Below are positions 12,236 to 34,961 of a stretch of DNA of 34,961 bases, piece by piece. A model generated the notes under the pieces. That model ran no database searches. It saw only the letters and a list, made by a program, of their open reading frames with translations, and was not told the DNA's origin. The stretch spans positions 1 through 34,961 of the IMG/VR virus record IMGVR_UViG_3300023180_000191; one strand, given 5' to 3'. Positions within the stretch are counted from its first letter, which is position 1. Every line of letters begins with the position of its first letter. This DNA comes from a virus. Made by a program: the position numbers and the translations under genes.

Positions 12236-13150
12236 ATGCTAGGACTAGGAACAATTATAGGCAAGGCGAGCGATCCAATTAGCATAATTGTGGAGCGCTC
12301 GTCGGCGCCTGGCAAATCCTCATTAGCCGCGTCTTATGAGTACTATTACTATGGGGGCGGGGGCGATGTGCTTCAAGGTGGGTTTAATATAAATACTATT
12401 TATTACCAGACTCTTGCGGATTGGGCTGGATATACTGGTTTAAGACAAGACTTTAATGAACCGTTAAACTCGTTTGACGCCTCGTCGTATAATTATTTTG
12501 ACTCACCATTTTCTAACACTTCATTTAATCAGCCTCTTGATCAATGGGATGTGTCTGGGATTGTTAGTATGCGCAACGCGTTACGGGGTGCATCATATTT
12601 TAACCAAGACATATCTGGATGGGATGTTAGTAATGTAACTGATATGGGTTATATGTTCTATGAGGCATATGCATTTAATCAAAATCTTTCAACTTGGAAC
12701 GTTAGTAATGTAGAAAATATGGGCGTTATGTTTAGGCATGCTCATGCATTCAATGGTAATGTTTCAGGGTGGAACGTTAGTAACGTATCTTTTATGTCTA
12801 GTATGTTTCATGATGCACGTGCATTCAATCAAGATATTTCAACTTGGAATGTAAGTAACGTAACTAATATGTCTCTTATGTTTTTTCAGGCATCTGCATT
12901 CAATCAAGATCTTTCAACGTGGAACATTGGTAGTGTAACCTATATGAGCAATATGTTTAGTGGTTCAGGCATGTCAACGACTAACTATTCTAATACCTTA
13001 ATAGGTTGGGCAGCACAAGCACCAAACATCCAATCAAATGTTCCCCTAGGCGCTTCTGGTATTAGATACAACTCTTCCGCACAATCTGCGAGAAATACAT
13101 TAACAGGCACTTACGGTTGGACTATAACCGACAGTGGCTTAGGATCTTAA
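12236..13150 (+). CDS. BspA-like (DUF285) repeat surface protein
   Basis: A 304-residue protein. Residues 97-246 (bases 12524-12973) are six consecutive 25-residue repeats with consensus FNQ-(D/N)-(I/L)-S-x-W-(D/N)-V-S-N-V-x-x-M-x-x-M-F-x-x-A-x-A; the last is degenerate. This is the BspA-like leucine-rich-type repeat (DUF285), known from bacterial surface lipoproteins and protist proteins. The N-terminal 95 residues contain a YEYYYYGGGGD patch and no signal peptide, so it is not secreted by the usual route and may be a virion surface part. The C-terminal 55 residues (GWAAQAPNIQ; GIRYNSSAQSARNTL; YGWTITDSG) are the family's typical cap. Binding to host glycans or proteins is the likely role, by inference. 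Confidence 0.88.
   Translation: MLGLGTIIGKASDPISIIVERSSAPGKSSLAASYEYYYYGGGGDVLQGGFNINTIYYQTLADWAGYTGLRQDFNEPLNSFDASSYNYFDSPFSNTSFNQPLDQWDVSGIVSMRNALRGASYFNQDISGWDVSNVTDMGYMFYEAYAFNQNLSTWNVSNVENMGVMFRHAHAFNGNVSGWNVSNVSFMSSMFHDARAFNQDISTWNVSNVTNMSLMFFQASAFNQDLSTWNIGSVTYMSNMFSGSGMSTTNYSNTLIGWAAQAPNIQSNVPLGASGIRYNSSAQSARNTLTGTYGWTITDSGLGS
12524..12973 (+). repeat. Six 75-bp in-frame repeats in the DUF285 gene
   Basis: Six tandem units of exactly 75 bp (25 codons) with shared words such as TGGAACGTTAGTAA and GCATTCAATCAAGA. The units are diverged enough to be old but close enough to recombine. Confidence 0.85.
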
Positions 13151-13418: not shown

Positions 13419-13592
13419 ATGATACCAACTCTTAAAATAATGCTCGATAGAGTTGCCAACTGGTGGATGAATAGACATACCCCAAATAAAGAATATTATC
13501 AGTACAATCTTGGGATGAACGCTTATGACAACGACACAGGAGATTATATAACATTCATTATCGGGTATGACAACCTAAAGCATGATAAATAA
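13419..13592 (+). CDS. Small hypothetical protein
   Basis: A 57-residue frame from ATG 13419 to TAA 13590-13592, beginning one base after the previous stop and overlapping the next gene's start by 11 bases. It is aromatic-rich (RVANWWMNRHTP; EYYQYNLGMNAYDND). No family recognised. It fills what would otherwise be a 160-base gap, and the overlap pattern matches the rest of the operon. Confidence 0.55.
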   Translation: MIPTLKIMLDRVANWWMNRHTPNKEYYQYNLGMNAYDNDTGDYITFIIGYDNLKHDK

Positions 13593-14454
13593 ACTTGTTT
13601 ATAGCCACTGGAGCAAACCTGCCGAAGGAACGCACGTGGGGTTTAACAGTGAAGCTATGTTTATGGCGTCACTATATCTTTCTTTAAGACAGAACGGCAA
13701 ATGGATTAAGAACACGGAGCTTGTAACCGACAAAGCCGGAGAAGAGCTTATCATTAATAAGTATGGTATACCATTCAAGTCCGTTGTGGTAACTATGGAT
13801 GAAATTAACTATATAGATAGTCATCACTGGGCTATTGGCAAGATTGAGGCTTGTAGAAAACAGACCGAGCCATTTATACATGTAGACAATGACGTATTTT
13901 GGTTTAAAAGAATACCTGAGTACATTCTTAAAGCGCAAGCTTGCTTCCAAAATGTTGAAACAGACGGTTTTACGTTTCAGTTTTACGAGGGTATGGCTAA
14001 GAATGCTGGAAAAAATTTTAAAAAGGCCAAACCGTTCGTGGACTATGGTAAAGTAGCAGCAGTGAATTGTGGCATAATGGGGTTTAATGATTTGTCATTT
14101 ATAGAAGAATGGGCGGAACACGCCCATGAGTATATAAATTACTTTGACAACACGGTTTTAGAGCCAGATGCGTTTAAGCTTTCGTCACTTATTTTCGAGC
14201 AGTTTCATTTATACTATTTTTTAAAGCATTACAAATTTGATATAAAATTTGTGGCTGGAGATGATAACCTTGAATGGGTAACAGCTGAAAGATCAAATGA
14301 ACTTGGCTACACTCATCTTATTTCGGGAAGCAAGAGAGGTCACGTAGTTGAAAAAAGACTGTTGAACAGGCTTAAGCACGATTATAATGATTTCTACAAA
14401 AAACTTAAAAAGCTTAACGAAGAAGATGTAACTAAAATAGAGCAGCGGCAATAA
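13582..14454 (+). CDS. DUF6734-like putative glycosyltransferase
   Basis: A 290-residue protein that resembles the DUF6734 family of Bacteroidota, which has a GT-A glycosyltransferase look. Near the N-terminus is LVYSHWSKP; ELVTDKAGEELI (about 46-57) fits the second strand; the key motif is PFIHVDNDVFW (about 97-107) with a DND triad at 102-104 in the place of the metal-binding DxD. Then come AAVNCGIMGFND (about 159-170) and a helical region with FEQFHLYYFLK. The likely reaction is transfer of a sugar from a nucleotide sugar, perhaps onto phage or host surface components, but substrate is unknown. A terminator follows at 14478, ending this block. Confidence 0.72.
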   Translation: MINKLVYSHWSKPAEGTHVGFNSEAMFMASLYLSLRQNGKWIKNTELVTDKAGEELIINKYGIPFKSVVVTMDEINYIDSHHWAIGKIEACRKQTEPFIHVDNDVFWFKRIPEYILKAQACFQNVETDGFTFQFYEGMAKNAGKNFKKAKPFVDYGKVAAVNCGIMGFNDLSFIEEWAEHAHEYINYFDNTVLEPDAFKLSSLIFEQFHLYYFLKHYKFDIKFVAGDDNLEWVTAERSNELGYTHLISGSKRGHVVEKRLLNRLKHDYNDFYKKLKKLNEEDVTKIEQRQ

Positions 14455-16713: not shown

Positions 16714-19700
16714 ATGCCAGAAATTAAACATACTTTTCTTGCTGGTAAGATGAACAAGGACTTTGATGAAAGACTTGTTCCAAACGGCGAGTATAGAGAC
16801 GCTTACAATATACAAGTAAAAACCTCTGATGGAGGAAACGCTGGTACTGTTCAAAACGTGCTTGGCAATTCCTTAGTGTTCGACGGAGGCTACATGACTA
16901 ACGAAACCGGCACTAGCAGCAGAGTGGTTGCTAGCATACCCGACGAGCAGGCTAACTGCATTTATTTCTTTATATCATCTCCGCCTATTACGACTAATCC
17001 TTCAGCGATTGATGGTGAGATAGTATATAAAGATCTGATAGTAAGACAGAACTCAAATGGCACAACTGATCCTATCGTAACTGATATACACGCGATAGTG
17101 GGGACTGCAGCTGATGCTAAGTCAGGTGGTCTTACCGAAAACGGTCCTTTTGTTACAATATCAGTGGATGACGCAAGCAAGTATAGAAAGGGCATGGAAG
17201 TAAGATTGTTTACTTCATCAGGTGCTTCTTTGCTCGAGCCTAAAACAGTGATAGAGTCCGTAAACACTGTCGCTAACAACATTAGACTTAACAAATGGCA
17301 AGATGCTGATCTTACCACGTGCACTGTCGCGATGTTTATAGCGGAGCAAGTTTTAGAGTTTAGAACTGATACACTTATAACTGGTATTAACATACTTGAG
17401 GATTTTATATTTTGGACTGACAACAAGCACGAGCCTAAAAAAATAAATATAAAAAGGTGTGAAGAAGGGACGGAGAGCTTTTCATCTCACACCAAACTTC
17501 AGTTGAAAAATTTTTCAAATGGAGAACTAAAGAATTTTAGCGAGTTTTATAACGTTAGTGAAGACCGTGATTGGTTGAGACGTGATCATATAACCGTTAT
17601 ACGCAAAGCTCCGCTAAACGCTCCAGTACTGGAAATGTCAAGTACCAGCCGTCACGGGGATACTGAAGTGCCCTTGCAAGACTCCAATTTTATAGAACCT
17701 TCAACTGGTAATTTAACTGGCAAGAGCGAAGGCGATATTATTGTTATTAATTTAGGTTCGCCAAGCGTTTCTATATACAAAAGCGATATAGTATATCTTG
17801 ACTGCGACAATCCATTAGAAGTAGATGTCCCTAAGAGATTAAAGGCTATCGTAGAATCTAAATCAAACTCTGAAATTGCTTGCCGCGTAATATCTATGCC
17901 GGATAATCTTGCGGCTGCCGAAAATGAGTGGACAATATCTCTGCAGGAATCTGAACCTTTGTTTGAGTTTGACTTACCTAGATTTGCATATAGGTATAAA
18001 TATGAAGATAATGAATATTCTTCGTTTTCGCCTTGGACGGAAATAGCTTTTTTACCTAGTCCATTCGATTATTCATCAGCCAAAGGTTATAATCTTGGCA
18101 TGGTGAATAGTCTTAAGCAATTGACCATAAAAGGGTGGATGCAGCCTTTAAGTCAACGGCCTTATGATATTAAAGCTGTAGATATACTTTATAAATCATC
18201 TGGTTCGCCTGTAGTATACGTTATTAAGACAATAACAAGAGGCAAAGATGACGAGTGGGACGGGATACAAAATGCCGCGGGGTCTATTACTTCTGTTGGC
18301 GAAGTCTCTATAACATCTGACTTAATACATAAGGCTGTTCCGTCTAATCAAATTTTAAGAGCGTGGGATAATGTCCCTAGAGCTGCTCTAGCTCAAGAGG
18401 TGACTGGAAATAGACTTTTATACGGCAATTACTTACAGGGTTATGATATTAATAAGCAGATCGGCCTCAACCAAAGCTTAGTTAGCAACATAATTAGTTC
18501 GGATGCAGAAGGTGTTATAACACCTGTTAAATCCGCGAAGTCAATGCGTACGTATAGATTCGGCATCGTGTTTAGTGACGCATACGGTAGAGAAACTCCC
18601 GTAATAGCGATTGGTGCTCACAGGATTACTAGTAGAACCGGCACAATTAGCACGACAAATTCGGATTTATACATACCGAAATCAGAGGCTAGCAACGCTA
18701 ATTCTTTCGCTTTAAGTCAAGTATGGTCTTCTAATGCATACAGTTCAGTACCACCTGCCTGGGCCACTCATTTTAAGTATTACGTTAAAGAAACTTCCGC
18801 TGAATACTACAATCTTGTGATGAGCAGATGGTATAACGCTGAAGACGGTAATGTATGGATCTCGTTCAACTCAGCTGACAGAAACAAGGTCGATGAGGAA
18901 ACATATTTATTGCTTAAAAACGAGCATGGTGACAACAAGGCCGTTGTTGAAAAAGCAAGATACAAAATACTTTCTATAGAAAATGACGCGCCCGACGACA
19001 TTAAAATAGATGAGCGCGTGATGGGCAGGTTCAAGGTTAATACTGATTATACTAACGATAATAACGCTGATAATAATTACACTGATCCTAACTTACAGTC
19101 TTCAATTACGTTCGATTTAGCGCTCGCGCAATGGGAGGGTTTTTCAAGGGAAATAGACTTTAAAGGAACCCCATATGTGAGATTAGTTGGAGACAGTTCG
19201 TCTGACGCGCTTAACGAAGGTAACACGGTTAAAACTAGTTGGGTTAAAATAACAAAATTCATGCCACCAGTCGCAGAATATTTAGGCGTCGCGGCTTCTA
19301 GTGGCAAAATGACAATACAGAAACCGTTTGGCGCGCAAGCCGCTTTACGTCAAGCTTACGCATCACAGTATAACGTTAACGTTCAAAACGTTCAAATATA
19401 TTATTACTTTGAAATAAAAGATAACATTGTTGAAAACAAGCCAGAGTTTGACGGAAAGTTCTTTGTTAAACTAGAGAAAGATGACACGTTAGTTTCAAAA
19501 GTTTTATCTGTAGAAAACGACTCTTCAATATATTATGGCGTTGAAGATGCTTGGCCCATAGGATATATGGACTCAACAGTTGATAACAACCCGGCTGACG
19601 AAGGTCCTAACTCTGGGACAAACGGGTTGTATAATTTCGGTATACACTATATTAGTGACTGGGACACTGGTGAAGTCGCAGGAAGTTTTGATAGATGTAA

Positions 19701-22188
19701 TAACGATACTGGCGCCACAGGCTCGAATAACGTAGGTAAATCTAAAGACTTTTGGGAAGGACACAACTCTAGCGGGGCTAAGATATTCATTGATAAAGCG
19801 TTTATTAGATATAGAGCAACCGATGCAGGTTCGACGTTGACAGGTGACCACACGACTAACGGCGAGGGCGGTTTAAGCGTTGGAGGCGCAGCAAACGGCA
19901 CATACGGTGCTTTATATATAAGTAAAAATAGCGCTGGATGGGGAGAGTTCTCTACGTTTAAAGCTAAATTCAGCACTGTAGGGACGTTGTTTAGATTTAG
20001 AAACGATCCTAATCAAATCGTTTATAAAATTATAGGTGGGATAAAACAAGGTATAAACCACAAGAATCATGCTAAAAATGATCTTTGTAACAACTCATGC
20101 CAAGGCGACCACGCCACGTGTTTGAGGCAAAGCATATACTTTAAGTTCAGAAAAATAGATAGCCAAGGCAACGCGACGAACGAAGGTATCAATACTGCTG
20201 TATTCGATCCACGGGGCCACGTCATGCATAATGGTAGAAATACCATAATGATAGAGACCGTCAAAAGATACGTGCGGACTGAAGATAGGCACGTTGATCC
20301 AGCTTTCGCTGGCGTATTTGAGACTGAACCAAAAGAAAACGTTGATCTTGACTTGTACTACGAAGCATCGGAATCTCTTCCAATGCGCATCACGGAGGAT
20401 ACTATAGATGCTTTCTTGCCTAAAGAATCTAGAATAACGAGCATAGTTAGGAATAATAGTTCCATAAACTTGCTTACAACCGGCGTTGTTAAATCAACAC
20501 ACCAAGAAGGATTCCGTTTGGTTCAAAATGACGTGGATAATACTACTGCATTCAAAGATCTTTTTGAAGAAGATGAGGTAGTGTTTGAGCACCCATCAGG
20601 AATGAAGGTCCACGCAAGAGTGGCTAAAAATATGGCGCTGTCAAATGCGATTCTTAATAATGCAGTTTCTTACACCCTCCCCGCGCAAGGTGCAACTGGT
20701 AGTGACACTATAAATGTTAGTGATAGTAGTTCGTTACAAGTTGGCGATCAGGTATACAACACTAGTATTCCAGTTGGTGCTAAAATAGAAAGCATAGCCG
20801 GTAATGTGGTGACAATAACTGAAACACTTACGTCTAATATATCTTCAGACGTCAGGTTTGTTAGACCGACTGGTTACTATGAGATTTATAAAGATGTGTA
20901 TAAAGATACTGTCGAGCTTTCTTGGCACAACTGTTACAGCTTCGGAAATGGTATAGAATCTGATAGAATAAGAGATGATTTCAATGCTAAGCAAATTGAC
21001 AACGGCGTTACAGTGTCAACTACGTTCACTGATTACGGTGAAGAACGTAGAAAGCACGGTCTCATATATTCTGGTATATATAACTCGAGTTCTGGTATAA
21101 ACGAACTTAATGAGTTCAACCAAGCTGAAAAAATAACTAAAGATTTAAATCCAACATATGGCTCTATTCAAGCTCTTAAGACTAGAGATACTGATGTTGT
21201 TGTATTTACTGAAGATCGTGTACTAAAGGTTCTTTCTAACAAAGACGCTTTGTTTAACGCAGACGGCAACACTAACATTGTGGCTACTGATAGAGTGCTT
21301 GGTCAAGCAGTTCCATTTGGTGGTGATTATGGGATTTCTAACAACCCAGAATCTTTGGTCAAAGACGAGTTCCGTATGTACTTCACAGATCGCGCCAGAG
21401 GAGCTGTTTTAAGACTGTCTAGAGATGGTATTACGCCTATATCGAATGTTGGTATGCGAGATTGGTTTAGAGATAATTTAAAAGACTCTTACAACCTCGT
21501 GGGAACGTGGGATAACGTAAACGGAGAATATAATGTTTCTATACATTATTATCCTGGACAGGGCAAGACGGACAAGACGGTCACGTTTAACGAAGTTGGT
21601 AAAGGTTGGGTATCTTTTAAGTCTTGGGTTGCTGATGCCGGCGCCACTGTAGATGGCATGTTTTTTACGGCTAGCTCACAAATGGACGCGGCTAACCCAG
21701 CCAAGTTATATAAGCACTATGCCGAGAACGCAAGTAGGAACAACTTTTACGGGACGCAGTATGATTCTTCTGTAACAGTGTTACTCAATGATATTCCAGG
21801 TTCTGTAAAATCATTCCAAACGTTAAACTACGAAGGCACTCAAGCAAGAATAAGACAATTAACCCAACAGACGGTTACAGATGCCGCTGGAAACAACGTC
21901 GTAGCAAATGATGGCCAGTACTACAATTTGTCAGATAAAGCTGGATGGTGGTGTGAGTATGTAAATACAAACCTCGAGAGTGGTGAGGTTAGTGAGTTTA
22001 TAGAGAAGGAAGGTAAGTGGTTTAATAACATAACAGGTCAAGCAACTACACTTAGTAATTTAGATACAAACGAGTTTAGCGTACAAGGGTTAGGGTTTGC
22101 GTACGGAATATTTAGCGACGATAGCGGCGCTGATGAAGCTTACAGTGGCTTTATTAGAGAGTATACATTAACAGTACAAGGAGAATAA
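16714..22188 (+). CDS. Tail stabilisation/hub protein (T7 gp12-like role)
   Basis: A 1,824-residue protein. The start MPEIKHTFLAGKMNKDFDER, then LVPNGEYRDAYNIQV, marks the stabilisation protein of Bacteroidota podoviruses. The last third contains the strongly conserved propeller-like block with VVVFTEDRVLKVLSN, GGDYGISNNPESL, MYFTDRARGAVLRLSRDGI and VGTWDNVNGEYNVS. Residues 1319-1382 (bases 20668-20859) are a compact beta insert with the pattern INVSDSSSLQVGDQVYNTSI, PVGAKIESI and VVTITETLTSN, a small domain also seen in fibre proteins. Around bases 20083-20130 there is a Cys-rich patch (CNNSCQGDHATC). The protein probably forms the short tail tube and hub; enlarged relative to T7 gp12. Confidence 0.84.
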   Translation: MPEIKHTFLAGKMNKDFDERLVPNGEYRDAYNIQVKTSDGGNAGTVQNVLGNSLVFDGGYMTNETGTSSRVVASIPDEQANCIYFFISSPPITTNPSAIDGEIVYKDLIVRQNSNGTTDPIVTDIHAIVGTAADAKSGGLTENGPFVTISVDDASKYRKGMEVRLFTSSGASLLEPKTVIESVNTVANNIRLNKWQDADLTTCTVAMFIAEQVLEFRTDTLITGINILEDFIFWTDNKHEPKKINIKRCEEGTESFSSHTKLQLKNFSNGELKNFSEFYNVSEDRDWLRRDHITVIRKAPLNAPVLEMSSTSRHGDTEVPLQDSNFIEPSTGNLTGKSEGDIIVINLGSPSVSIYKSDIVYLDCDNPLEVDVPKRLKAIVESKSNSEIACRVISMPDNLAAAENEWTISLQESEPLFEFDLPRFAYRYKYEDNEYSSFSPWTEIAFLPSPFDYSSAKGYNLGMVNSLKQLTIKGWMQPLSQRPYDIKAVDILYKSSGSPVVYVIKTITRGKDDEWDGIQNAAGSITSVGEVSITSDLIHKAVPSNQILRAWDNVPRAALAQEVTGNRLLYGNYLQGYDINKQIGLNQSLVSNIISSDAEGVITPVKSAKSMRTYRFGIVFSDAYGRETPVIAIGAHRITSRTGTISTTNSDLYIPKSEASNANSFALSQVWSSNAYSSVPPAWATHFKYYVKETSAEYYNLVMSRWYNAEDGNVWISFNSADRNKVDEETYLLLKNEHGDNKAVVEKARYKILSIENDAPDDIKIDERVMGRFKVNTDYTNDNNADNNYTDPNLQSSITFDLALAQWEGFSREIDFKGTPYVRLVGDSSSDALNEGNTVKTSWVKITKFMPPVAEYLGVAASSGKMTIQKPFGAQAALRQAYASQYNVNVQNVQIYYYFEIKDNIVENKPEFDGKFFVKLEKDDTLVSKVLSVENDSSIYYGVEDAWPIGYMDSTVDNNPADEGPNSGTNGLYNFGIHYISDWDTGEVAGSFDRCNNDTGATGSNNVGKSKDFWEGHNSSGAKIFIDKAFIRYRATDAGSTLTGDHTTNGEGGLSVGGAANGTYGALYISKNSAGWGEFSTFKAKFSTVGTLFRFRNDPNQIVYKIIGGIKQGINHKNHAKNDLCNNSCQGDHATCLRQSIYFKFRKIDSQGNATNEGINTAVFDPRGHVMHNGRNTIMIETVKRYVRTEDRHVDPAFAGVFETEPKENVDLDLYYEASESLPMRITEDTIDAFLPKESRITSIVRNNSSINLLTTGVVKSTHQEGFRLVQNDVDNTTAFKDLFEEDEVVFEHPSGMKVHARVAKNMALSNAILNNAVSYTLPAQGATGSDTINVSDSSSLQVGDQVYNTSIPVGAKIESIAGNVVTITETLTSNISSDVRFVRPTGYYEIYKDVYKDTVELSWHNCYSFGNGIESDRIRDDFNAKQIDNGVTVSTTFTDYGEERRKHGLIYSGIYNSSSGINELNEFNQAEKITKDLNPTYGSIQALKTRDTDVVVFTEDRVLKVLSNKDALFNADGNTNIVATDRVLGQAVPFGGDYGISNNPESLVKDEFRMYFTDRARGAVLRLSRDGITPISNVGMRDWFRDNLKDSYNLVGTWDNVNGEYNVSIHYYPGQGKTDKTVTFNEVGKGWVSFKSWVADAGATVDGMFFTASSQMDAANPAKLYKHYAENASRNNFYGTQYDSSVTVLLNDIPGSVKSFQTLNYEGTQARIRQLTQQTVTDAAGNNVVANDGQYYNLSDKAGWWCEYVNTNLESGEVSEFIEKEGKWFNNITGQATTLSNLDTNEFSVQGLGFAYGIFSDDSGADEAYSGFIREYTLTVQGE
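22178..22184 (+). promoter_or_regulatory. Shine-Dalgarno of the 22190 fibre gene
   Basis: AAGGAGA lies 5 bases before ATG 22190 and inside the 3' end of the previous gene, giving support for a start just one base after that gene's stop codon. Confidence 0.6.
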
Positions 22189-24556: not shown

Positions 24557-25195
24557 ATGTCATTTGTACTAGCAGGAATAGCAATAGCAGGGGCTACCTT
24601 AGCGGTAGCTGGAGGCACAACTTCAGCTATCATGGCTGGAAAGGCCAAAAAAGAAGCCGCGGCAAAAGCACAAGACGAAAAAGTTAGGATGGATCAATTA
24701 AAAGCACAATATGCTTCACTTGACACGTCTAATCCTTTCCTTAACCAAGAAAACAAGTTCGAAGACTTGACTGTTAACCAGCAACAAGCACAATTCCAAG
24801 CGCAGCAGTTTCAACAGTCACAAGCCAACATACTTGATTCCCTTAGAGGGGCAGCGGGTGGAAGTGGCATAGCTGCATTAGCGCAACAATTAGCTCAGCA
24901 AGGGGATATAGCTAGCCAAAGAGCTTCAGCGACTATAGGTCAGCAAGAAGCTGCGAATCAACGCATGGCGGCACAAGAGGCCGCTAGATTACAGACTGCC
25001 GAAAGACAAGGTGAACTTATATCTAGAAATTTAGAACGAGATCAAGTGGGCACGTTATTAGGTATGAGTCAAAATACCTACGCGGCATACGCTCAAGCCG
25101 AGACCGCCGCGCAACAAGCTCAAATAGATGCTATTTCAGGCATAGGTAGCAACGTTGCTAGTGTTGGTAGTTCTTATATAAACAGTCAAGGTTAA
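24557..25195 (+). CDS. Internal virion protein candidate (Q/A-rich, membrane-active)
   Basis: A 212-residue protein. Residues 1-28 are a hydrophobic, Ala/Gly-rich helix (GIAIAGATLAVAGGTTSAIM), then a charged linker and a long Gln/Ala-rich helical region (FEDLTVNQQQAQFQAQQFQ, GSGIAALAQQLAQQG, ATIGQQEAANQRM). The 'NPF-NQENKFEDLTVNQQQA' and 'GAAG-SGIAALAQ' motifs recur in proteins from many tailed phages and are compatible with a T7 gp14-like ejection protein. It begins right at the cupin stop. Function from position and composition, not from a solved homologue. Confidence 0.75.
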   Translation: MSFVLAGIAIAGATLAVAGGTTSAIMAGKAKKEAAAKAQDEKVRMDQLKAQYASLDTSNPFLNQENKFEDLTVNQQQAQFQAQQFQQSQANILDSLRGAAGGSGIAALAQQLAQQGDIASQRASATIGQQEAANQRMAAQEAARLQTAERQGELISRNLERDQVGTLLGMSQNTYAAYAQAETAAQQAQIDAISGIGSNVASVGSSYINSQG

Positions 25196-26277: not shown

Positions 26278-29200
26278 ATGGAGGTAAAAGAGTATTTAGT
26301 AAACGGTAAGAAGTACAGAGTATCTTCTGACCGAGAGCAAGATTTTTTAGCAAAATTTCCAAACGCACAATTGTTGGGAAAGACAAATGGCTCAGCGGAG
26401 AGCGCGACCGAGGAGTCGAAACCAGCGCAACAACCATCGAAAACAAAGACAGAGGCGGAAAAAATAGAGCAAGATACGGCATTGTCTTCGGAGGATGGTT
26501 CTTTGGATTATGTGACTGCGGCTCTTGAGAAGCATAGACAATATAACGCTACTGAAGAGCAGAGAGCCGAAGCAAAAGCCAGGGCTGAAGAACGCGTTGC
26601 ATATTTAGATAGTGGCAACGCTACAGATATTAAAGCTATAAAGAAAGAAGTTAGAAGTGAAGAAGAAGAAGAAGGTTTCTTTGATAGCATGTGGAAAACT
26701 CTTGAAAGAGGTTTTAGCCTTACTCCAGAGAACGTAGCTCGAGATAAAGAAGCTAAAGAAAGATTAGATGCTAATTTTAAAGAAAAAGGTAAGTTAAGTA
26801 ACGAAGTATATGATTCCTTGCTGGCTGCTCATAATGAAGGATTACCATCTGATCAGCGTATTAGACAGTATGACGACGACGGTAGGATCACTGATAAGTA
26901 CTACGACTGGTTACAAACCATCGATGACGAAACAATACAGCGGACTAAAGTTGAGAAACTCGCTGGTAAATACGAAGACGAGTATTTCGACAAGAACGTC
27001 GAGGAAGAGATGGAGGATAGAGCTGCGTGGCACGGTGCCACTAGAAGCGAGTCCCAAAAACAAGAGGAAGAACTGGCCATGAACGCTATAAGCCAGTTAG
27101 ATGAAGAGAAAGCCAAGCTTATCAAAAGACAAAACGCGCTCGTAAATGGCATGAAAGGCCTGATGCTTAAGTACGACGCGCTTGATTTGTTAAATAGCAA
27201 GTTAGAAGATCTTAATGCACGTATGGAGAAGATAGTTTCTGTGCAGTACAAAGATCAAGAGTCATATAACGCTGCTAACAAAGAGCTTGATGCGCTTAAG
27301 TCTCAATTCACGAAGTTGACTGATGAGTATTTCGCCGGAGGTGGATTACCTCCAGATCAACTTAAAAAAGAGCGCGAATCATATCTTAGGGCGTTTGGTA
27401 GGGTTCAAGACGCTATGGAGGGTTTTAACGGTAAAGAACAAGATCTTAATAAGTATTTAGATGCTATGGGTCGTAATTACGGCTGGAGTGCTAACTTGGC
27501 TATGGGTCTTGCTAGTGGTGGATTGAAGCTTGGAGCTGGATTAGTTCAAGCTTATGAAATGGTTCAGGACGTACCAGCTGACTTATTTAGCGATATGGTC
27601 CCGATGCTTCCTGACTCGCTTAAGCCATACGCATCTTCTATAGAACTCGGTTTAGGTACTCTAGGTAAAGTAGCAACTGGAGATATATACGGTTCTATAG
27701 GACAGCTCGTCACTGGTGAAGACCCAACTAGTGAACTGGTTGATCAATTGTGGGCTTGGGATGCTTCCATTAGCAATAACATGGAGAAGCCAAGTGAATT
27801 TAGTGATATTGAAAACGCTGAAGACTTTGGCGAATGGTTCGGTAATCTTGTTACAACGCAAGCTGCTAACACTGCCGTGACGTTTGGTACTGGCGGGGCT
27901 TCTTTATTTATATTGGGCGCATCTGCGGCGGGCGGTAAGTTTCATGATATAGAGGAAGAAATGCGTGCATACGCTAATCTTCCGGAAGACCACCCAATGC
28001 ATAACTTTAAGTATACTAAGGCTCAGCAGTATTCGGCTGCCATATTGTCTGGTACATTTGAAGGTTTATCAGAGAAAGTAACTCTTGGTCAAGCTAAGTT
28101 CGTCAAGGACATGATGGCGTCTAGCGTGCCAATGCAGCGCGGCTTTAAGAATTTCTTACAAAGAAATTTTTTCACTAAAAGCGGACTGTACAACAACTTT
28201 TACGACCCTATTGAAGAAGGTTTTTCTGAAAGTTTAGCTGAGCTTGGTAATAATATAACGGATAGGTTTGTTATGGGCAAAGATGTTTCTTTGCTCCAAG
28301 GCATGGATGAAAGCTTTGTTAGTGGCTTGTTCATGAGTGGTGTTGTATATAAGTCTCCGCTTATAGGCAAAAACTTAGTTAAGGCTTTCCAATCCTCTGA
28401 CGTATCCGCTGAGATTGCTAGTATAAGCGAAGAACTGCAGCGTAAGACTGGAATACTGAACACGGTAGAGCTTTCTGAGGAAAATAGAAAAGGTATTGAG
28501 GCCGATATTGAAAGTCTCGTGGCTAGACATACAACGCTGGTCAATGAGACCATGAATGGCGTTCAAAACATGGACGCCGAGACTAGAAGTGCTCTCATCA
28601 ATATAGATGTTGAGTTAGCTAGACTTAGACAGTCAAATAAAGATATAGCCGCCGATCCGTCTCTTAGTCAAGAACAAGTACGAGAGCTGCAGCAAAAGAA
28701 CTCTGATCGTATGCAAAGCTTTAAGGCCGCTAAAGATCAGATTATAGCTAAGGCCAACAAGCAGGAAAACTTAGATCAAATAGAAAGATCTACCACTAAA
28801 GCTCAAAAAGATATAGAAAAAATTACTGGAAAGCCAGTCAAGTTTTTTAGAGCAAATAATAAGAATCTACAACAACAAGTAGATGATTTTAAAAAGACAG
28901 AACTAGAGTATATAGAAAACCAGTTAGCTACAAAAAGTGAGCAGCTTAAAAGCGCTGAGGGAGCAGACGCCGCTAAGTTGCGCAGAGAAATAAATCAATT
29001 AGAAAAAGCTAAAGAAGATACTAATTCATACTCACTAGACAATATCGGCGGGGCACAAGGATTTGTATCTGACGTTACTGGTAATATCTTCATAAATACT
29101 GAGCTTTCTGCTGAAACTGGTGGTATAAACGTCGTTAACCACGAGTTAATGCACTCAGTACTTAAGAAAACGCTAGCTGATAATCCTAGAGCTGCTCTCG

Positions 29201-32200
29201 CCATGGGTAAAGCCGTAGACGATTATCTAGATAAAATGGATCTAGACCAGGTTGAAGGAGCCACTATGAAGGCTAGGTTAAAAGCTTATAAAGATTCTCC
29301 TTCTTCCGTCCGAGCAGAAGAAAAGCTTACTTTGTTTTTAGACGCTATAGCTACAGGTGATATTAAGATAAAAAGAACAGGTAACCAAAAGCTTGGTGAC
29401 GCAATGCGTAGGGTTATGCAGTCGGCTGGACTGAAGGATATTCAATTTAACAATGCCGAAGATGTATTTAACTTTATAACTGATTTCCAAGCTTCTAGAA
29501 ACAGCATATTCTTTAACAAAGGAATAGCTAAAGTAGCCCAGGAAGGTGTCAAGGTAGGTAAAGAATTATTAGCCACAGTTGACATAAACGAGCTCATATC
29601 AGCTAAAGGTGAGATAGCCCAGACCGTGATGAAGTCGTCTGCGGCCGATGTTACAGACATGGTTAATGACCTTGGCGGTGCTATGGGCTGGACGAATGAA
29701 ACTTGGAAAGAAGTTGGTGGTAACTTCGCCCTGCAGACAATGCAAGATGAAGGTATGCTTGACCGTCTCATAGCATCTAAGCTTAAAGTGCCAATGAGTC
29801 CAGCTGACACCAGAGAATTTATATCTAAAGTATATGCTGAGCTCGCTAGCCATATCAAGAACTTCAATCCAGAAATAAATGACAGCTTATTTGGTTGGAT
29901 TAATTCTCAGATAGCTAATAAGGCTGGTAACGTTTATAACAGGGAATACAAGGTTACAGAAGAATCTAGAGCTGTTGATATTGACGCAACTACTAGCGAC
30001 GGGGCAGCATTAATCCAAATTGAGGCCGATGCAGACACAGACATGGACCGCATCGACTCGATAACTCTAGGCGACATAACTCAAAAGACAGAAGAGGCAA
30101 GAGACAGATATTCTAAACTACGTAGAGACATTGGTCTTGATGAGGCCATGATGCAAACCGTTAGAAATGCTGTTATAAAAACCTTTGGAACAAAACTTCC
30201 TAGCACTGATAATAAGCAGTTTAAATCAGAGCTTGAAAAAGCTTTTAGAAGAGAGCTGAAAAAGCCTATACAAGATTTAATGGGCACTAGAGAGAATTTT
30301 GAGTTCTTTTTGGTAGACAATTTCGAAGCTATATTCGAAGCATTGCCAGTATCAACGCTTGTTCAGATGGAGCGTAATCTTGAACCATCTAAAAGAATAT
30401 TTACGGAATCAAGACGTATAACAAAACCCACTGAAGTTGATCAATTAATCAGCGAAGGTAAGTTACCTAAAGACACAAACAGACTTTCCGGACCTCAACT
30501 TCATACTAAAAAAGCTACACCAACTTCAGAGCAGGTATTAGCCTTCTTTAGAGGCAAGGACATGGATAATATCCTTGGCTACAAAATAGGTGGATCAACG
30601 CTTGGTACTCGCAAAGACAAACTTGCCATGGAAATTGGCGTTGAGCTAGCGTTTGATGCCACGGCTGAGGTTATACAAAGCCCAGAAGTTAGAGAGAGAA
30701 GGAAAGGTATACTTGAGTTACAAGGTCTTGAAATGGCTGAAAATGATTTAGCTATGGTCAGCAAGGCCATTGACAGAGACCCGAGCATAAAGTTCAGCAA
30801 GGCAGCAACCGCTTCCTTGGCGTTTAGTAGATCTATCAACTCCGAGAACTTGAGCGTTTATTTCTCTAAACTAGACGAATTGCTCGAGGCTAGCAGAAAC
30901 GGTCTGAAGTTGAACAACGTTGGAGCTGTCAAGGCTAAGTTAAAAGAAATATATGGAGATGAGTTATCTTCTAAAGAAATACTTTCTACGGCGAACAAAA
31001 TTGCTAAGTGGGCAAAAGACTATGAGGCTATAGAAGACAAATCTCAAGAGTTTGCCACCAAAGAAATAGATGTACAGAACTACGTTAAGTTTATGTCCGA
31101 ACAAGACGTTCTAGATAAAGGAATATCTGATCTTCTTGGAGATGTTTTACCAGATGGATTTAAATCTATATCGGCACTGTATGGCAATAAAGAAAGAATA
31201 AATAGAGCTAGATCCGCTGCTAGAGGATTGTTTGAAGAACTAGAGCAAAAACTTGGTAGACAAAAAGCCGTGCAACTCATGGTTATGTTGAAGGGTCAAT
31301 ATGCTTCTTCAGCAAAAATAGGGGATGGAAAATTTACCGTTAAAGATGGAGTTGTAATAGAAGGCAAGGGTAAAGTAGGGACTAACAGAGGTCAAGTGTT
31401 TGTGTCTGCCAGTGATTATTACGGCACGTTAGGTATAACAGAGGCTGAAATCAAAGTCGCTAAAGACTCTAGAAAAAACTTTGCTGAAAAATCTTCTAAT
31501 GGCATTAAAGACCAAGACTACGACGGTAGACTTGAACAAGCTAAAGAAGCTAGAGAAGCTACCCAAGCTGTGACCGAATATTATCTTAATGGAATAAAAG
31601 AAGGTTTCCTTGACTACGGTGATTTAGCCATGCTGACAAAAATGTTTGGCTCAAACATGAACTCACCGATGAAAAGAGCAGCTAACCTAGCTTACATAGC
31701 CGTTGGTGTTGAAAACATGGATATTAAAAAGGCTGGTAAAGAAATGGAGTATGAACATATGGTTCCTACTAACGCCAAGATTTATCAGATGATAGACACT
31801 TATCTTCAAGCCGGCAAACTACCAAGCGATTTCTGGGACGATTACGAAGTTGCTATTATACCGAAAACAATGGATAAGGCTCTTATTGCTAATGGCCTTA
31901 GAGATGGTAGCGTGGAAGGTCCATTTAAGCTTGGAGATGAAAACTGGAGACGGTACTATAACAAACTGATGTTTGGCGAGAATGTTGTCGCTATAAGAAA
32001 TATAAAGACTGGAGAGATTATTGGTCAAGATTTCGTCGACGCTAACAACTTGCTGCAGACTGGTAAAATTAACGAAAAAGGCTCTGCCATAATAAATCAA
32101 GTCGCTCTTAAATTTTCTAAAGCCGCTGAAGTAACTCCTCGTGGGATGTCGACTTTTGACTTTGATGAAACCCTCATTATACATGGCAAGAATTTTATTA

Positions 32201-34961
32201 CTGCAACCAAAGGCGATCAGACAATAAAAATTAGCTCTGATCAATGGCCGGTGAAAGGACCGGCTCTTGCTGAAGAAGGATGGGACTTTGACTTTTCTGA
32301 TTTTGCACAAGTGCGTGGCGGAAAAGAAGGTCCTTTCTTGGACAAGATGAGGGAGCGTATACGGCAGTTTGGCGCTAAAGATGTGTTTATACTTACAGCA
32401 AGGCAGCAAGAGGCTGCAATGCCTATACACGAATGGTTAAAATCTAAAGGCATAGATATTCCGTTAGAGAACATAACTGGACTTGGTGATAGTCGTGGAG
32501 AGGCTAAGGCTGAGTGGATGTTAGAGAAGTTTAATGAAGGTTACAACGATATGTACTTTGTTGACGATGCTTTCTCTAACGTCAAGGCTGTTCAAACCGT
32601 GTTCGACCAGTTTGATATTAAAGGAAAGACTGTTCAGGCGTTTATTAAGTTTAGCAAGACGGCAGAGTCTGATTTTAGCAACATACTTGAGCAGGTAAAA
32701 GGCATGCCAGCGGCTAAGCAAATATCCGCTGCGCAAGCTTCAATAATAGGTAGAAGCAAAGGAAGATTCAGATTCTTCGTACCTCCGTCCGCTGAAGACT
32801 TCAAAGGTTTGCTTTACAATTTCCTTGGTAAAGGCAAGGAAGGTGATGCGCAAATGAAGTTCTTCAAGGAAAAACTCCTTGATCCGTTCTCTACCGGTAT
32901 AAGGCAGTTAAATACATACCGCCAGAGAATGTCTGAGGATTACGCTATGCTTAAAAAAGCAGGGCGTGACGTCGTGAAAAGATTCAAGAAGCCTATTGGT
33001 GTTGGAAATTACACTACCGAGCACGCTATAAGGGTTTGGTTATGGCAGGCTAATGGCATTAAAATACCAGGCATAAGTGAGTCTGAAGTGAAAGCTCTGG
33101 TTGCTAAGGTGAACATGGACGAAGACCTCGTGAACTTTGCTATGGTGCTCTCTAATATATCTAGGCAAAAAGAAGGATATGTAAAGCCAAGTGAGTACTG
33201 GACCGCGGGAAGCATTGGGCAAGATCTTGTTGATGCAACTAAAGGAGCGAGAGCAACATTCTTGGCGGAATGGAAGGCCAATAAAGACCTAATATTCTCA
33301 GAGAATAACATGAATAAAATCGAAGCTATATACGGAACTAGATTCCGTGAAGCTCTCGAGGATATTCTTTATCGCATGGAGAACGGTACGAACCGACCTA
33401 AGGGTAACGATAGAGAGGTCAATAGCTTCTTAAACTGGATCAACGGCTCTGTTGGAACGGTCATGTTCTTCAACACTAGATCTGCGTTACTTCAAACACT
33501 GTCGACTGTAAACTTTATAAACTTCGCTGATAACAATATATTTGCTGCGGCTAAGGCGTTTGCTAACCAAAAACAGTTTTGGGCTGATTTTGCGATGCTA
33601 TACAACTCTGACATGCTTAAGCAAAGAAGAGCCGGCACGAAGATTGACGTCAGCGCTGCCGAACTTTCTGAAGCTGCAGCACGTGGTGGAGGCAAGGTTG
33701 AGGCAGTTATATCAAAGCTTCTCGACATTGGTTTTACGCCTACGCAAATCGCGGATAGCTTTGCTATAGCGCTTGGCGGTTCTACCTACTATAGAAACAG
33801 GGTCAATAAATACCTTAAAGAAGGTTTGAGCAAAGCTGAGGCAGAAGCTAAAGCTTTTGAGGACTTCCAAGAAATAGCTGAGGAAACGCAGCAGTCGTCA
33901 AGACCTGACCTTATCTCTAAGCAGCAAGCCGGAACACTTGGTCGTTTGATTCTCGCTTGGCAGAATACGCCTATGCAGATGACACGTTTGACAAAGAAAG
34001 CTTTGTCTGATATTATAAACGGCAGAGGCGATCTTAAGTCTAATATATCTAGAGTCGTTTACTACGGCGTTATGCAGAACATTTTGTTTGGTGCACTGCA
34101 GTCTGGTCTCATGTTCGCGTTGTTTGGTGATGACGACGATGAAGAGGACGAAAAGCGCAAGGCTAATAGAGTTGCCAACGGTGTGCTTGATTCACTGTTG
34201 CGAGGTACTGGTATATATGGTGCAGCAGCAGCAACTCTTAAAAACGTTATACTCAAGTGGGCTGAAGAACACGAAAAAGGTTTCGGCAAGCAAGACTGGA
34301 GTAAGGTTGCGCAGGAGGTTATCAACTTATCACCACCTATGGGTAGCAAGTTACGTAAGGTCATGAACGCTGTTAAGACTTACGAGTACAACGAAGAGAT
34401 GATAGACAAGATGAACTGGAGCCCTAATAACCCAGCTTGGAACGTATTTGGTAATGTTGTCGAAGCCACTGCTAATATACCTTTAGCTAGATTAATGAAC
34501 AAGGCATCAAACATAGAAGTTGCTATGCAAGAAGGTCTTGAGCCTTGGCAAAGAGCAGCGTTAATACTTGGCTGGAGTAAGTGGGATGTTGGAGTTGAAG
34601 ATGCAGAGCTGCAAGAAGCCAGACAAGAAGTCAGAGAGGAAAGAGAAGCTGCTTCAGAAGAACGTAGACAAGAACGCGCAGAAGAGCGTAGACAAGAAAG
34701 AGAAAGAGAGAACGCCGAGCAAGTCGAAGAAAATGAGCGAGACCTAGAGGAAGATAGAGATAGAGGTGTCCCAGAAGAAGAGTTAAGATGCGCTCACGTC
34801 AAGGACAATGGCGAGCGTTGCGGCAAAACACCACTTGAAGGTAAATCTTTCTGTACTATTCACGAGCGAGTGCCGCAAGGCAACGAAGAGAAGCAATGCT
34901 CTCACATAAAAGCTGACGGAAAACGTTGCAAGGTTAAGACTAAAAATGAGTCTGGATTGTG
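26278..34961 (+). CDS. Giant polyvalent inner-virion protein, 3' partial
   Basis: The frame stays open from ATG 26278 to the window end: over 2,894 residues. The start is a conserved short motif (VNGKKYRV then FLAKFPNAQLLG) followed by acidic linker. Around 520-660 are small-residue hydrophobic and 'EEGFSESLAELGNNI' stretches typical of large polyvalent phage proteins. Residues 955-959 are HELMH, a zinc metallopeptidase site, with E1014/E1015 as third-ligand candidates. Residues 1826-1830 are EHMVP. Residues 1958-2100 are a HAD phosphatase: D1961/D1963/T1965, T2040, K2077, D2096/D2097. Near 2538-2567 are QQSSRPD and NTPMQ, then a TM segment about 2594-2617. An Arg/Glu-rich coiled coil precedes CCCH repeats at 2838-2895. 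It is probably ejected with the DNA. Confidence 0.88.
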   Translation, partial: MEVKEYLVNGKKYRVSSDREQDFLAKFPNAQLLGKTNGSAESATEESKPAQQPSKTKTEAEKIEQDTALSSEDGSLDYVTAALEKHRQYNATEEQRAEAKARAEERVAYLDSGNATDIKAIKKEVRSEEEEEGFFDSMWKTLERGFSLTPENVARDKEAKERLDANFKEKGKLSNEVYDSLLAAHNEGLPSDQRIRQYDDDGRITDKYYDWLQTIDDETIQRTKVEKLAGKYEDEYFDKNVEEEMEDRAAWHGATRSESQKQEEELAMNAISQLDEEKAKLIKRQNALVNGMKGLMLKYDALDLLNSKLEDLNARMEKIVSVQYKDQESYNAANKELDALKSQFTKLTDEYFAGGGLPPDQLKKERESYLRAFGRVQDAMEGFNGKEQDLNKYLDAMGRNYGWSANLAMGLASGGLKLGAGLVQAYEMVQDVPADLFSDMVPMLPDSLKPYASSIELGLGTLGKVATGDIYGSIGQLVTGEDPTSELVDQLWAWDASISNNMEKPSEFSDIENAEDFGEWFGNLVTTQAANTAVTFGTGGASLFILGASAAGGKFHDIEEEMRAYANLPEDHPMHNFKYTKAQQYSAAILSGTFEGLSEKVTLGQAKFVKDMMASSVPMQRGFKNFLQRNFFTKSGLYNNFYDPIEEGFSESLAELGNNITDRFVMGKDVSLLQGMDESFVSGLFMSGVVYKSPLIGKNLVKAFQSSDVSAEIASISEELQRKTGILNTVELSEENRKGIEADIESLVARHTTLVNETMNGVQNMDAETRSALINIDVELARLRQSNKDIAADPSLSQEQVRELQQKNSDRMQSFKAAKDQIIAKANKQENLDQIERSTTKAQKDIEKITGKPVKFFRANNKNLQQQVDDFKKTELEYIENQLATKSEQLKSAEGADAAKLRREINQLEKAKEDTNSYSLDNIGGAQGFVSDVTGNIFINTELSAETGGINVVNHELMHSVLKKTLADNPRAALAMGKAVDDYLDKMDLDQVEGATMKARLKAYKDSPSSVRAEEKLTLFLDAIATGDIKIKRTGNQKLGDAMRRVMQSAGLKDIQFNNAEDVFNFITDFQASRNSIFFNKGIAKVAQEGVKVGKELLATVDINELISAKGEIAQTVMKSSAADVTDMVNDLGGAMGWTNETWKEVGGNFALQTMQDEGMLDRLIASKLKVPMSPADTREFISKVYAELASHIKNFNPEINDSLFGWINSQIANKAGNVYNREYKVTEESRAVDIDATTSDGAALIQIEADADTDMDRIDSITLGDITQKTEEARDRYSKLRRDIGLDEAMMQTVRNAVIKTFGTKLPSTDNKQFKSELEKAFRRELKKPIQDLMGTRENFEFFLVDNFEAIFEALPVSTLVQMERNLEPSKRIFTESRRITKPTEVDQLISEGKLPKDTNRLSGPQLHTKKATPTSEQVLAFFRGKDMDNILGYKIGGSTLGTRKDKLAMEIGVELAFDATAEVIQSPEVRERRKGILELQGLEMAENDLAMVSKAIDRDPSIKFSKAATASLAFSRSINSENLSVYFSKLDELLEASRNGLKLNNVGAVKAKLKEIYGDELSSKEILSTANKIAKWAKDYEAIEDKSQEFATKEIDVQNYVKFMSEQDVLDKGISDLLGDVLPDGFKSISALYGNKERINRARSAARGLFEELEQKLGRQKAVQLMVMLKGQYASSAKIGDGKFTVKDGVVIEGKGKVGTNRGQVFVSASDYYGTLGITEAEIKVAKDSRKNFAEKSSNGIKDQDYDGRLEQAKEAREATQAVTEYYLNGIKEGFLDYGDLAMLTKMFGSNMNSPMKRAANLAYIAVGVENMDIKKAGKEMEYEHMVPTNAKIYQMIDTYLQAGKLPSDFWDDYEVAIIPKTMDKALIANGLRDGSVEGPFKLGDENWRRYYNKLMFGENVVAIRNIKTGEIIGQDFVDANNLLQTGKINEKGSAIINQVALKFSKAAEVTPRGMSTFDFDETLIIHGKNFITATKGDQTIKISSDQWPVKGPALAEEGWDFDFSDFAQVRGGKEGPFLDKMRERIRQFGAKDVFILTARQQEAAMPIHEWLKSKGIDIPLENITGLGDSRGEAKAEWMLEKFNEGYNDMYFVDDAFSNVKAVQTVFDQFDIKGKTVQAFIKFSKTAESDFSNILEQVKGMPAAKQISAAQASIIGRSKGRFRFFVPPSAEDFKGLLYNFLGKGKEGDAQMKFFKEKLLDPFSTGIRQLNTYRQRMSEDYAMLKKAGRDVVKRFKKPIGVGNYTTEHAIRVWLWQANGIKIPGISESEVKALVAKVNMDEDLVNFAMVLSNISRQKEGYVKPSEYWTAGSIGQDLVDATKGARATFLAEWKANKDLIFSENNMNKIEAIYGTRFREALEDILYRMENGTNRPKGNDREVNSFLNWINGSVGTVMFFNTRSALLQTLSTVNFINFADNNIFAAAKAFANQKQFWADFAMLYNSDMLKQRRAGTKIDVSAAELSEAAARGGGKVEAVISKLLDIGFTPTQIADSFAIALGGSTYYRNRVNKYLKEGLSKAEAEAKAFEDFQEIAEETQQSSRPDLISKQQAGTLGRLILAWQNTPMQMTRLTKKALSDIINGRGDLKSNISRVVYYGVMQNILFGALQSGLMFALFGDDDDEEDEKRKANRVANGVLDSLLRGTGIYGAAAATLKNVILKWAEEHEKGFGKQDWSKVAQEVINLSPPMGSKLRKVMNAVKTYEYNEEMIDKMNWSPNNPAWNVFGNVVEATANIPLARLMNKASNIEVAMQEGLEPWQRAALILGWSKWDVGVEDAELQEARQEVREEREAASEERRQERAEERRQERERENAEQVEENERDLEEDRDRGVPEEELRCAHVKDNGERCGKTPLEGKSFCTIHERVPQGNEEKQCSHIKADGKRCKVKTKNESGL
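32152..32583 (+). other. HAD-type phosphatase domain within the giant protein
   Basis: All four HAD motifs are in order: STFDFDETL (nucleophile D1961, acid D1963, T1965), VFILTAR (T2040), a Lys in RGEAKAEWM (K2077), and YFVDDAF (D2096/D2097). Spacing between motifs I and IV (about 135 residues) fits a small HAD fold without a large cap. A phosphatase or nucleotidase activity is likely; the substrate is not. Confidence 0.85.
34789..34961 (+). repeat. Tandem zinc-binding CCCH repeats, second one cut
   Basis: Repeat 1 has C2838, C2848, C2859 and H2862. Repeat 2 has C2874 and C2884 at the same spacing, and the window ends inside codon 2895 (TG-), exactly where the third Cys is expected. Period is 36 residues. 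The C-x(9)-C-x(10)-C-x2-H layout matches a small zinc-binding motif found in phage proteins. Confidence 0.75.

Follow-up and report, generated by a model that had tools for sequence, protein, structure and literature searches.

A giant modular protein family of marine phages, probably virion cargo, joins a zincin-like site to a predicted Pnkp-like phosphatase

The window analyzed here, the whole of a 34,961-nt virus record, ends in a gene for a giant protein of a new family within the known class of polyvalent proteins. Its members combine a Pnkp-like phosphatase, in some cases with a kinase nested inside it, with a CCCH tail and a short motif that is a candidate for marking module junctions. 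The same design, with swappable parts, recurs in well over a hundred related marine viruses and is probably a toolkit injected into bacteria. We lean slightly toward the full set of properties that this implies, namely a protein that is virion cargo, ejected, modular and enzymatically active.

The frame opens with an ATG 12 bases past the preceding stop and comprises 2,894 stop-free codons, still open at the record end. Because the window is the entire record, the stop cannot be read, and the C-terminal 209 aa, used as a query to extend beyond position 34961, retrieved no relative. The frame is intact, and relatives are complete as single ORFs, in agreement with the sequence-only reading, in which a single giant phage protein closes a virion block. 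That reading had also placed its motifs correctly (HELMH at 955-959, EHMVP at 1826-1830, DFDETL at 1961, LTAR at 2039 and the CCCH tail from 2838), and, given the residues invariant across relatives, we take these motifs not to be chance. The gene, its virion-type neighbors and the regions of the protein are as follows.

16714..22188, + strand: muzzle (tail) protein of the crAss/Pachyviridae type (PF25731, E 8e-16; phrog_14478; phi18:3 gp114)
24557..25195, + strand: small virion-type protein upstream, whose homologues precede the giant gene in most relatives
26278..34959, + strand: giant protein gene, probably of the virion; single open frame, 2,894 codons up to the record end, where its 3′ part is truncated
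27604..28824, + strand: N-terminal region, aa 443-849 common with phi18:3 gp123 and aa 476-935 with Gundel_1 gp074 (small-set blastp, E 7e-13 and 2e-14)
29059..29475, + strand: zincin-like metallopeptidase core, aa 928-1066, with HELMH at 955-959 and third ligand E1015 (invariant residues; M78 matches in relatives; moderate-confidence model)
29641..29964, + strand: tentative sigma-factor region-2-like helical domain, aa 1122-1229 (pLDDT about 90; sigma-factor structure matches)
30097..30804, + strand: conserved domain with a confident model, aa 1274-1509, ending at a KFSKA motif (pLDDT about 85-95)
30790..30804, + strand: junction motif 1, KFSKA; homology of 23 relatives ends at aa 1510
30823..30831, + strand: FSR junction motif, aa 1516-1518
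31624..32106, + strand: EH..P module, aa 1783-1943, with conserved E1826, H1827, P1830, D1866 and R1892, common to 44 relatives
32110..32124, + strand: junction motif 2, KFSKA, before the HAD; homology of 56 relatives starts at aa 1943
32122..32628, + strand: predicted Pnkp-like HAD phosphatase module, aa 1949-2117, with D1961, D1963, T2040, K2084 and D2096 (invariants; T4 Pnkp 3′-phosphatase Z 12.3)
32644..34632, + strand: conserved C-terminal domain, aa 2123-2785; even distant members share about 50% identity here
32647..32661, + strand: junction motif 3, KFSKT, from the HAD to the C-terminal domain, kept in relatives without the HAD
34069..34125, + strand: weak hydrophobic segment, aa 2598-2616 (hydropathy, mean KD 1.45)
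34789..34959, + strand: C-terminal CCCH zinc units (DUF5763-like), one complete, the second cut by the record end

Family scans by the C-terminal domain and by the HAD domain gave at least 80 loci each. Among the loci collected were at least 142 complete giant frames of 1,808-4,311 aa (about 140 relatives on independent viral contigs), a figure that includes some genes fetched twice as well as Cellulophaga phage phi18:3 and Tenacibaculum phage Gundel_1; with repeats removed and cut frames counted in, 145 giant frames were available. To avoid selection bias, co-occurrence was counted only in the 68 complete giants found by the C-terminus alone, where HExxH was present in 67, the HAD motif in 58 and both in 57, the HExxH always lying 785-1,133 residues N-terminal of the HAD. 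The combination of zincin site and HAD is therefore an inherited architecture, real as first read but not unique to the window. Around it, modules have been gained, lost and swapped among relatives. Marine virus contigs often carry the family, and the deposited phages searched contained distant relatives only (phi18:3 and Gundel_1). None of the cultured phages found has the full form with both zincin and HAD. No near-identical phage was found in the annotated phage collection, nor any relative of the C-terminal domain in the bacterial genomes searched. Neither Pfam nor NCBIfam has a model covering the family; the giant protein weakly matched DUF2608 in Pfam and a polynucleotide kinase in PHROGs, and had no match in NCBIfam.

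Upstream of the giant gene lie GroEL/GroES, terminase, portal, capsid, ring and muzzle genes. The terminase, portal, capsid, two ring and muzzle genes stand in the same order as in phi18:3, and most of these virion-block genes also match Gundel_1 (Pachyviridae), so that the gene set, as distinct from any formal family rank, is of the Pachyviridae type. Homologues of the small upstream protein were found at 134 loci, all on the same strand as the giant gene and at a median of 1.6 kb before its start. For phi18:3, MS/MS proteomics notes cover gp99, gp104, gp112-115, gp120, gp121 and gp123, among them the portal, capsid, ring and muzzle proteins and the terminal giant protein gp123. As the gene order is phi18:3-like and gp123 shares aa 443-849, the virion location is well supported, and the homology argues that the giant protein is very likely virion cargo. 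Gp123 occupies the same place among the virion genes but has neither the HExxH nor the HAD motif, and the MS evidence therefore covers the scaffold and not the modules. Gundel_1 gp074 likewise shares the place and the N-terminal region, with an HEFGH of its own, a weak GNAT match and no HAD motif. Analogy with the crAss001 cargo, the N4 virion RNA polymerase (vRNAP) and T7 proteins makes ejection likely.

Three other loci of the window deserve mention. A DUF285 repeat protein (Mycoplasma-type, E 1e-62; 12236-13150) lies within the virion block and is possibly a head/tail decoration or an adhesin, a DUF6734 gene (13582-14454) is found between the capsid and ring genes, and a phage GroEL (5′ cut) and GroES pair (1-1558) precedes the terminase.

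Homology between giants begins or ends at [KRQ]FS[KR], of which the window has copies at 1506, 1946 and 2125. Because a first motif statistic counted inherited copies and was inflated, breakpoint tests were used. A dereplicated set of 103 giants gave 1,047 breakpoint clusters among distant pairs, of which 122 fell within 20 aa of an FS[KR] (52 expected) and 41 near a YS[KR] (18 expected), while permuted or substituted tripeptides gave 0.6-1.2x the expected number. In close pairs, identity changed sharply at 11 places no more than 8 aa from [FY]S[KR], against 1.1 expected (about 10x), with controls near expectation; the breakpoint and transition counts are not fully independent, and many lie at the HAD border. 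The short motif [FY]S[KR] is thus where homology breakpoints and recent module swaps are concentrated, which is a new observation. One recent swap of a module is seen between the giants of two loci (L005 and L006), which are near-identical along most of the chain and diverge in a middle stretch bounded by FSK motifs.

The motif need not be a protease site: it could simply mark the borders of modules, either as a flexible linker or as a scar of recombination. This explanation is about evenly balanced against the others, and a linker is at least as likely as a protease site, attractive as the latter is. The motif is enriched at borders unevenly across members, many of which have few FS[KR] sites or none, and one conserved copy sits at the junction of the HAD and the C-terminal domain, where it is kept even if the HAD is absent or non-adjacent (L003, L004, L057). 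A mere scar fits less well with a protein-level motif kept over divergent DNA, with permuted tripeptides at expectation, which suggests selection at the protein level. Cleavage by the zincin at [FY]S[KR], as far as these sequence patterns bear on it, would be doubtful.

The residues H955, E956, H959 and E1015 of the zincin-like core are invariant in 32 relatives. The giant protein thus has a conserved HExxH with a downstream Glu ligand, an arrangement that fits the definition of polyvalent MPTases in the available text of Iyer et al. 2017 (PMC5512222), and Peptidase_M78 matches were obtained in 2 relatives (E 1e-4). The block was modeled with a pLDDT of about 60-80, and no zincin was among the structural matches listed; of the metallopeptidase first proposed, the conserved site held and the zincin fold was not recovered. 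A profile of the block gave only weak Nop56-type coiled-coil matches in the PDB, which were taken as spurious. The site is thus supported by its invariant residues, and a zincin fold and activity are putative.

Self-processing of the giant chain by this putative zincin, as already proposed for polyvalent proteins in the same available text (PMC5512222), is a possibility to which we give slightly less than even weight. It is unlikely that the action of the zincin would be confined to the producing cell, where it would trim the chain no later than the packaging step, in the way inferred for P1 DdrB. That protein undergoes processing ahead of packaging, and the conserved FS[KR] junction ahead of the C-terminal domain would permit the removal of that domain, but the N4 vRNAP, which also bears a zincin, is packaged uncut (PMC5512222, available text for both). 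That the N4 protein keeps its zincin in this state counts against self-cutting after delivery as well.

Across 51 sequences, the HAD module keeps D1961, D1963, T1965, K2084 and D2096 without exception, and in its LTAR the residue T2040 is nearly invariant. The model of aa 1640-2175 had a mean pLDDT of 81.6, with about 90 over most of the HAD, and combined motifs I-IV with a Rossmannoid fold. The full HAD signature read at 1961-2097 is hence real and folds as a HAD phosphatase in the predicted structure. Against the T4 Pnkp 3′-phosphatase, the VIA re-alignment gave Z 12.3 (rmsd 2.4, 127 residues aligned). The best five structural rows were all Pnkp phosphatases (T4 Pnkp and bacterial Pnkp1, Z 11.4-12.3) and other HADs reached at most 10.6, a modest margin of 0.8-1.7 Z units. 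Foldseek values were weak, the best (E 0.02) being to Ceg4, a HAD effector of Legionella; the several domains in the model may be the reason. The HAD profile had no match among PDB sequences up to E 0.1. The window matched the polynucleotide kinase family phrog_415 at E 0.008.

Six relatives (L025, L037, L057, L070, L072 and L082) carry a P-loop kinase (AAA_33/zeta-toxin-like, best E 3e-13) inside the HAD, inserted between motif I and LTAR to form a nested kinase-phosphatase; the window member has no P-loop kinase motif and so no fused 5′-kinase. T4 polynucleotide kinase-phosphatase and bacterial Pnkp1 are alike in HAD fold and motifs and, for these six relatives, in the kinase, but here the phosphatase is part of a giant, probably virion-borne protein and the kinase, if any, is nested within the HAD. 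Both the Pnkp structural matches and the nested kinase point to nucleic-acid end healing. The HAD is probably catalytically active, and it may, at about even chances, act on nucleic-acid ends. The nested kinase could also be a zeta-toxin-like sugar kinase and not an end-healing enzyme, the use of zeta-like kinases being noted for polyvalent proteins in the available part of PMC5512222. There is little reason to prefer a phosphotyrosine or small-molecule phosphatase directed at host signaling, like the bacterial effectors Lem4 and Ceg4: although Ceg4 ranked first in Foldseek and Lem4 reached Z 9.4, the Pnkp phosphatases scored higher in Z (11.4-12.3) and a kinase is nested in this very domain in relatives.

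The block of aa 928-1510, common to at least 20 relatives and stopping at 1510, also contains the helical domain at aa 1122-1229. All solved-structure rows listed for this domain were sigma factors, the best with a Z of 8.4 (rmsd 2.8, 92 aligned) that is within the common range for helical matches, and sigma factors recurred among its BFVD matches. Sigma70_r2 scored 13.5 bits in one relative (L026), under the cut-off of 24, and E 0.08 in 1 of 19 members. The domain, present in 40 of the 145 giants, is kept as tentative because the profile-profile comparison failed (hhalign against the phages' own stand-alone sigma factors, probability 0.1%), and true sigma homology, as suggested by the model, is possible but not favored. 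Several relatives (G003, G006, G009, G019, G020 and G025; L168-L175) encode a separate, stand-alone sigma factor that is about 250 aa long and scores over the Sigma70_r2 cut-off.

The EHMVP motif was found where it had been read, in an enzyme-like module in which H1827 and R1892 are invariant in 38 relatives. The proposed C-terminal membrane segment corresponds only to a weak hydrophobic peak at 2598-2616 (mean KD 1.45). As for the CCCH repeats, one unit is complete (C2838, C2848, C2859 and H2862) and the second is cut at the record end; DUF5763 scored under the Pfam cut-off in the window and over it in one relative (L064, E 4e-8). Of the complete relatives, 48 have two units, and in these the final CxxH is placed one residue ahead of the stop and 36-48 residues after the first. 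The window protein is accordingly nearly complete, with an expected end near residue 2,899-2,911, and its frame is probably short by some 5-15 residues.

We propose that the protein would be cargo inside the virion of a marine phage that has a short tail and resembles phi18:3, serving as an injected tool chain. Its conserved end regions (about 443-935 and 2123-2785) would provide for packaging and exit via the tail, and the middle of the chain would hold swappable modules. Once inside the cell, the chain would most likely be cut by its own zincin at the inter-module linkers, which would free the modules, and the HAD would most likely work on nucleic-acid 3′ ends as a phosphatase of the Pnkp type, mending DNA or tRNA that host nucleases have broken. 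A mainly structural, T7 gp16-like ejection-conduit protein, in which the zincin and HAD would be relics or would aid packing or folding and would do nothing in the cell, seems improbable to us. It would account for conservation being strongest in the C-terminal domain (about 50% identity) and in the region common with gp123, itself devoid of both enzyme motifs, but not for modules that are gained, lost and swapped, or for catalytic residues invariant over 32 and 51 diverse members while identity elsewhere falls to about 20-30%. An assembly or frameshift chimera of separate genes, which the sequence-only reading had named as its refuter, is ruled out for practical purposes by about 140 intact ORFs with the same order on independent contigs and by one unbroken alignment to a relative (L026; 1,926 columns without a break of frame, aa 804-2693, 49%), and nothing was found in its favor.

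With the HAD, the HExxH site and further modules in one ORF, the protein has the several unrelated domains on one polypeptide by which polyvalent proteins are defined. It resembles those described by Iyer et al. (PMC5512222, in the text available) in its disparate enzymes, zincin-like peptidase and late virion gene context, and injection and self-processing were proposed there as here. In the available main text of that study, 'phosphatase', 'polynucleotide kinase', 'sigma factor' and an FSR/FSK motif do not occur, and HAD only as the verb. The N4 vRNAP and P1 DdrB are also large packaged zincin proteins, but with different payloads (RNA polymerase and a ParB-like domain, respectively). Phage crAss001, which has a muzzle tail protein, carries the large virion cargo proteins gp45, gp46, gp47, gp49 and gp50 (PMC10172136). 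These are likewise large and from a muzzle-tailed phage, and the three largest are RNA-polymerase-related; no enzyme domain shared with the giant protein of the window was detected.

Embedded zincins have been proposed to release polyvalent proteins, and the available text of PMC5512222 names no cleavage signal; here a candidate signal arises from comparative data. In its most far-reaching form, the proposal would have a large marine phage lineage deliver a self-cutting polyprotein, with [FY]S[KR] as both recombination and zincin cut site, that releases a Pnkp-type end-healing enzyme together with a sigma-like factor right at the onset of infection; we consider it highly unlikely that all of this holds together. 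If true, a virion-borne Pnkp-like phosphatase would allow nuclease damage to be repaired before any gene is expressed, and would give the phage a counter, within the first minutes, to anticodon nucleases or DNA-cutting defenses.
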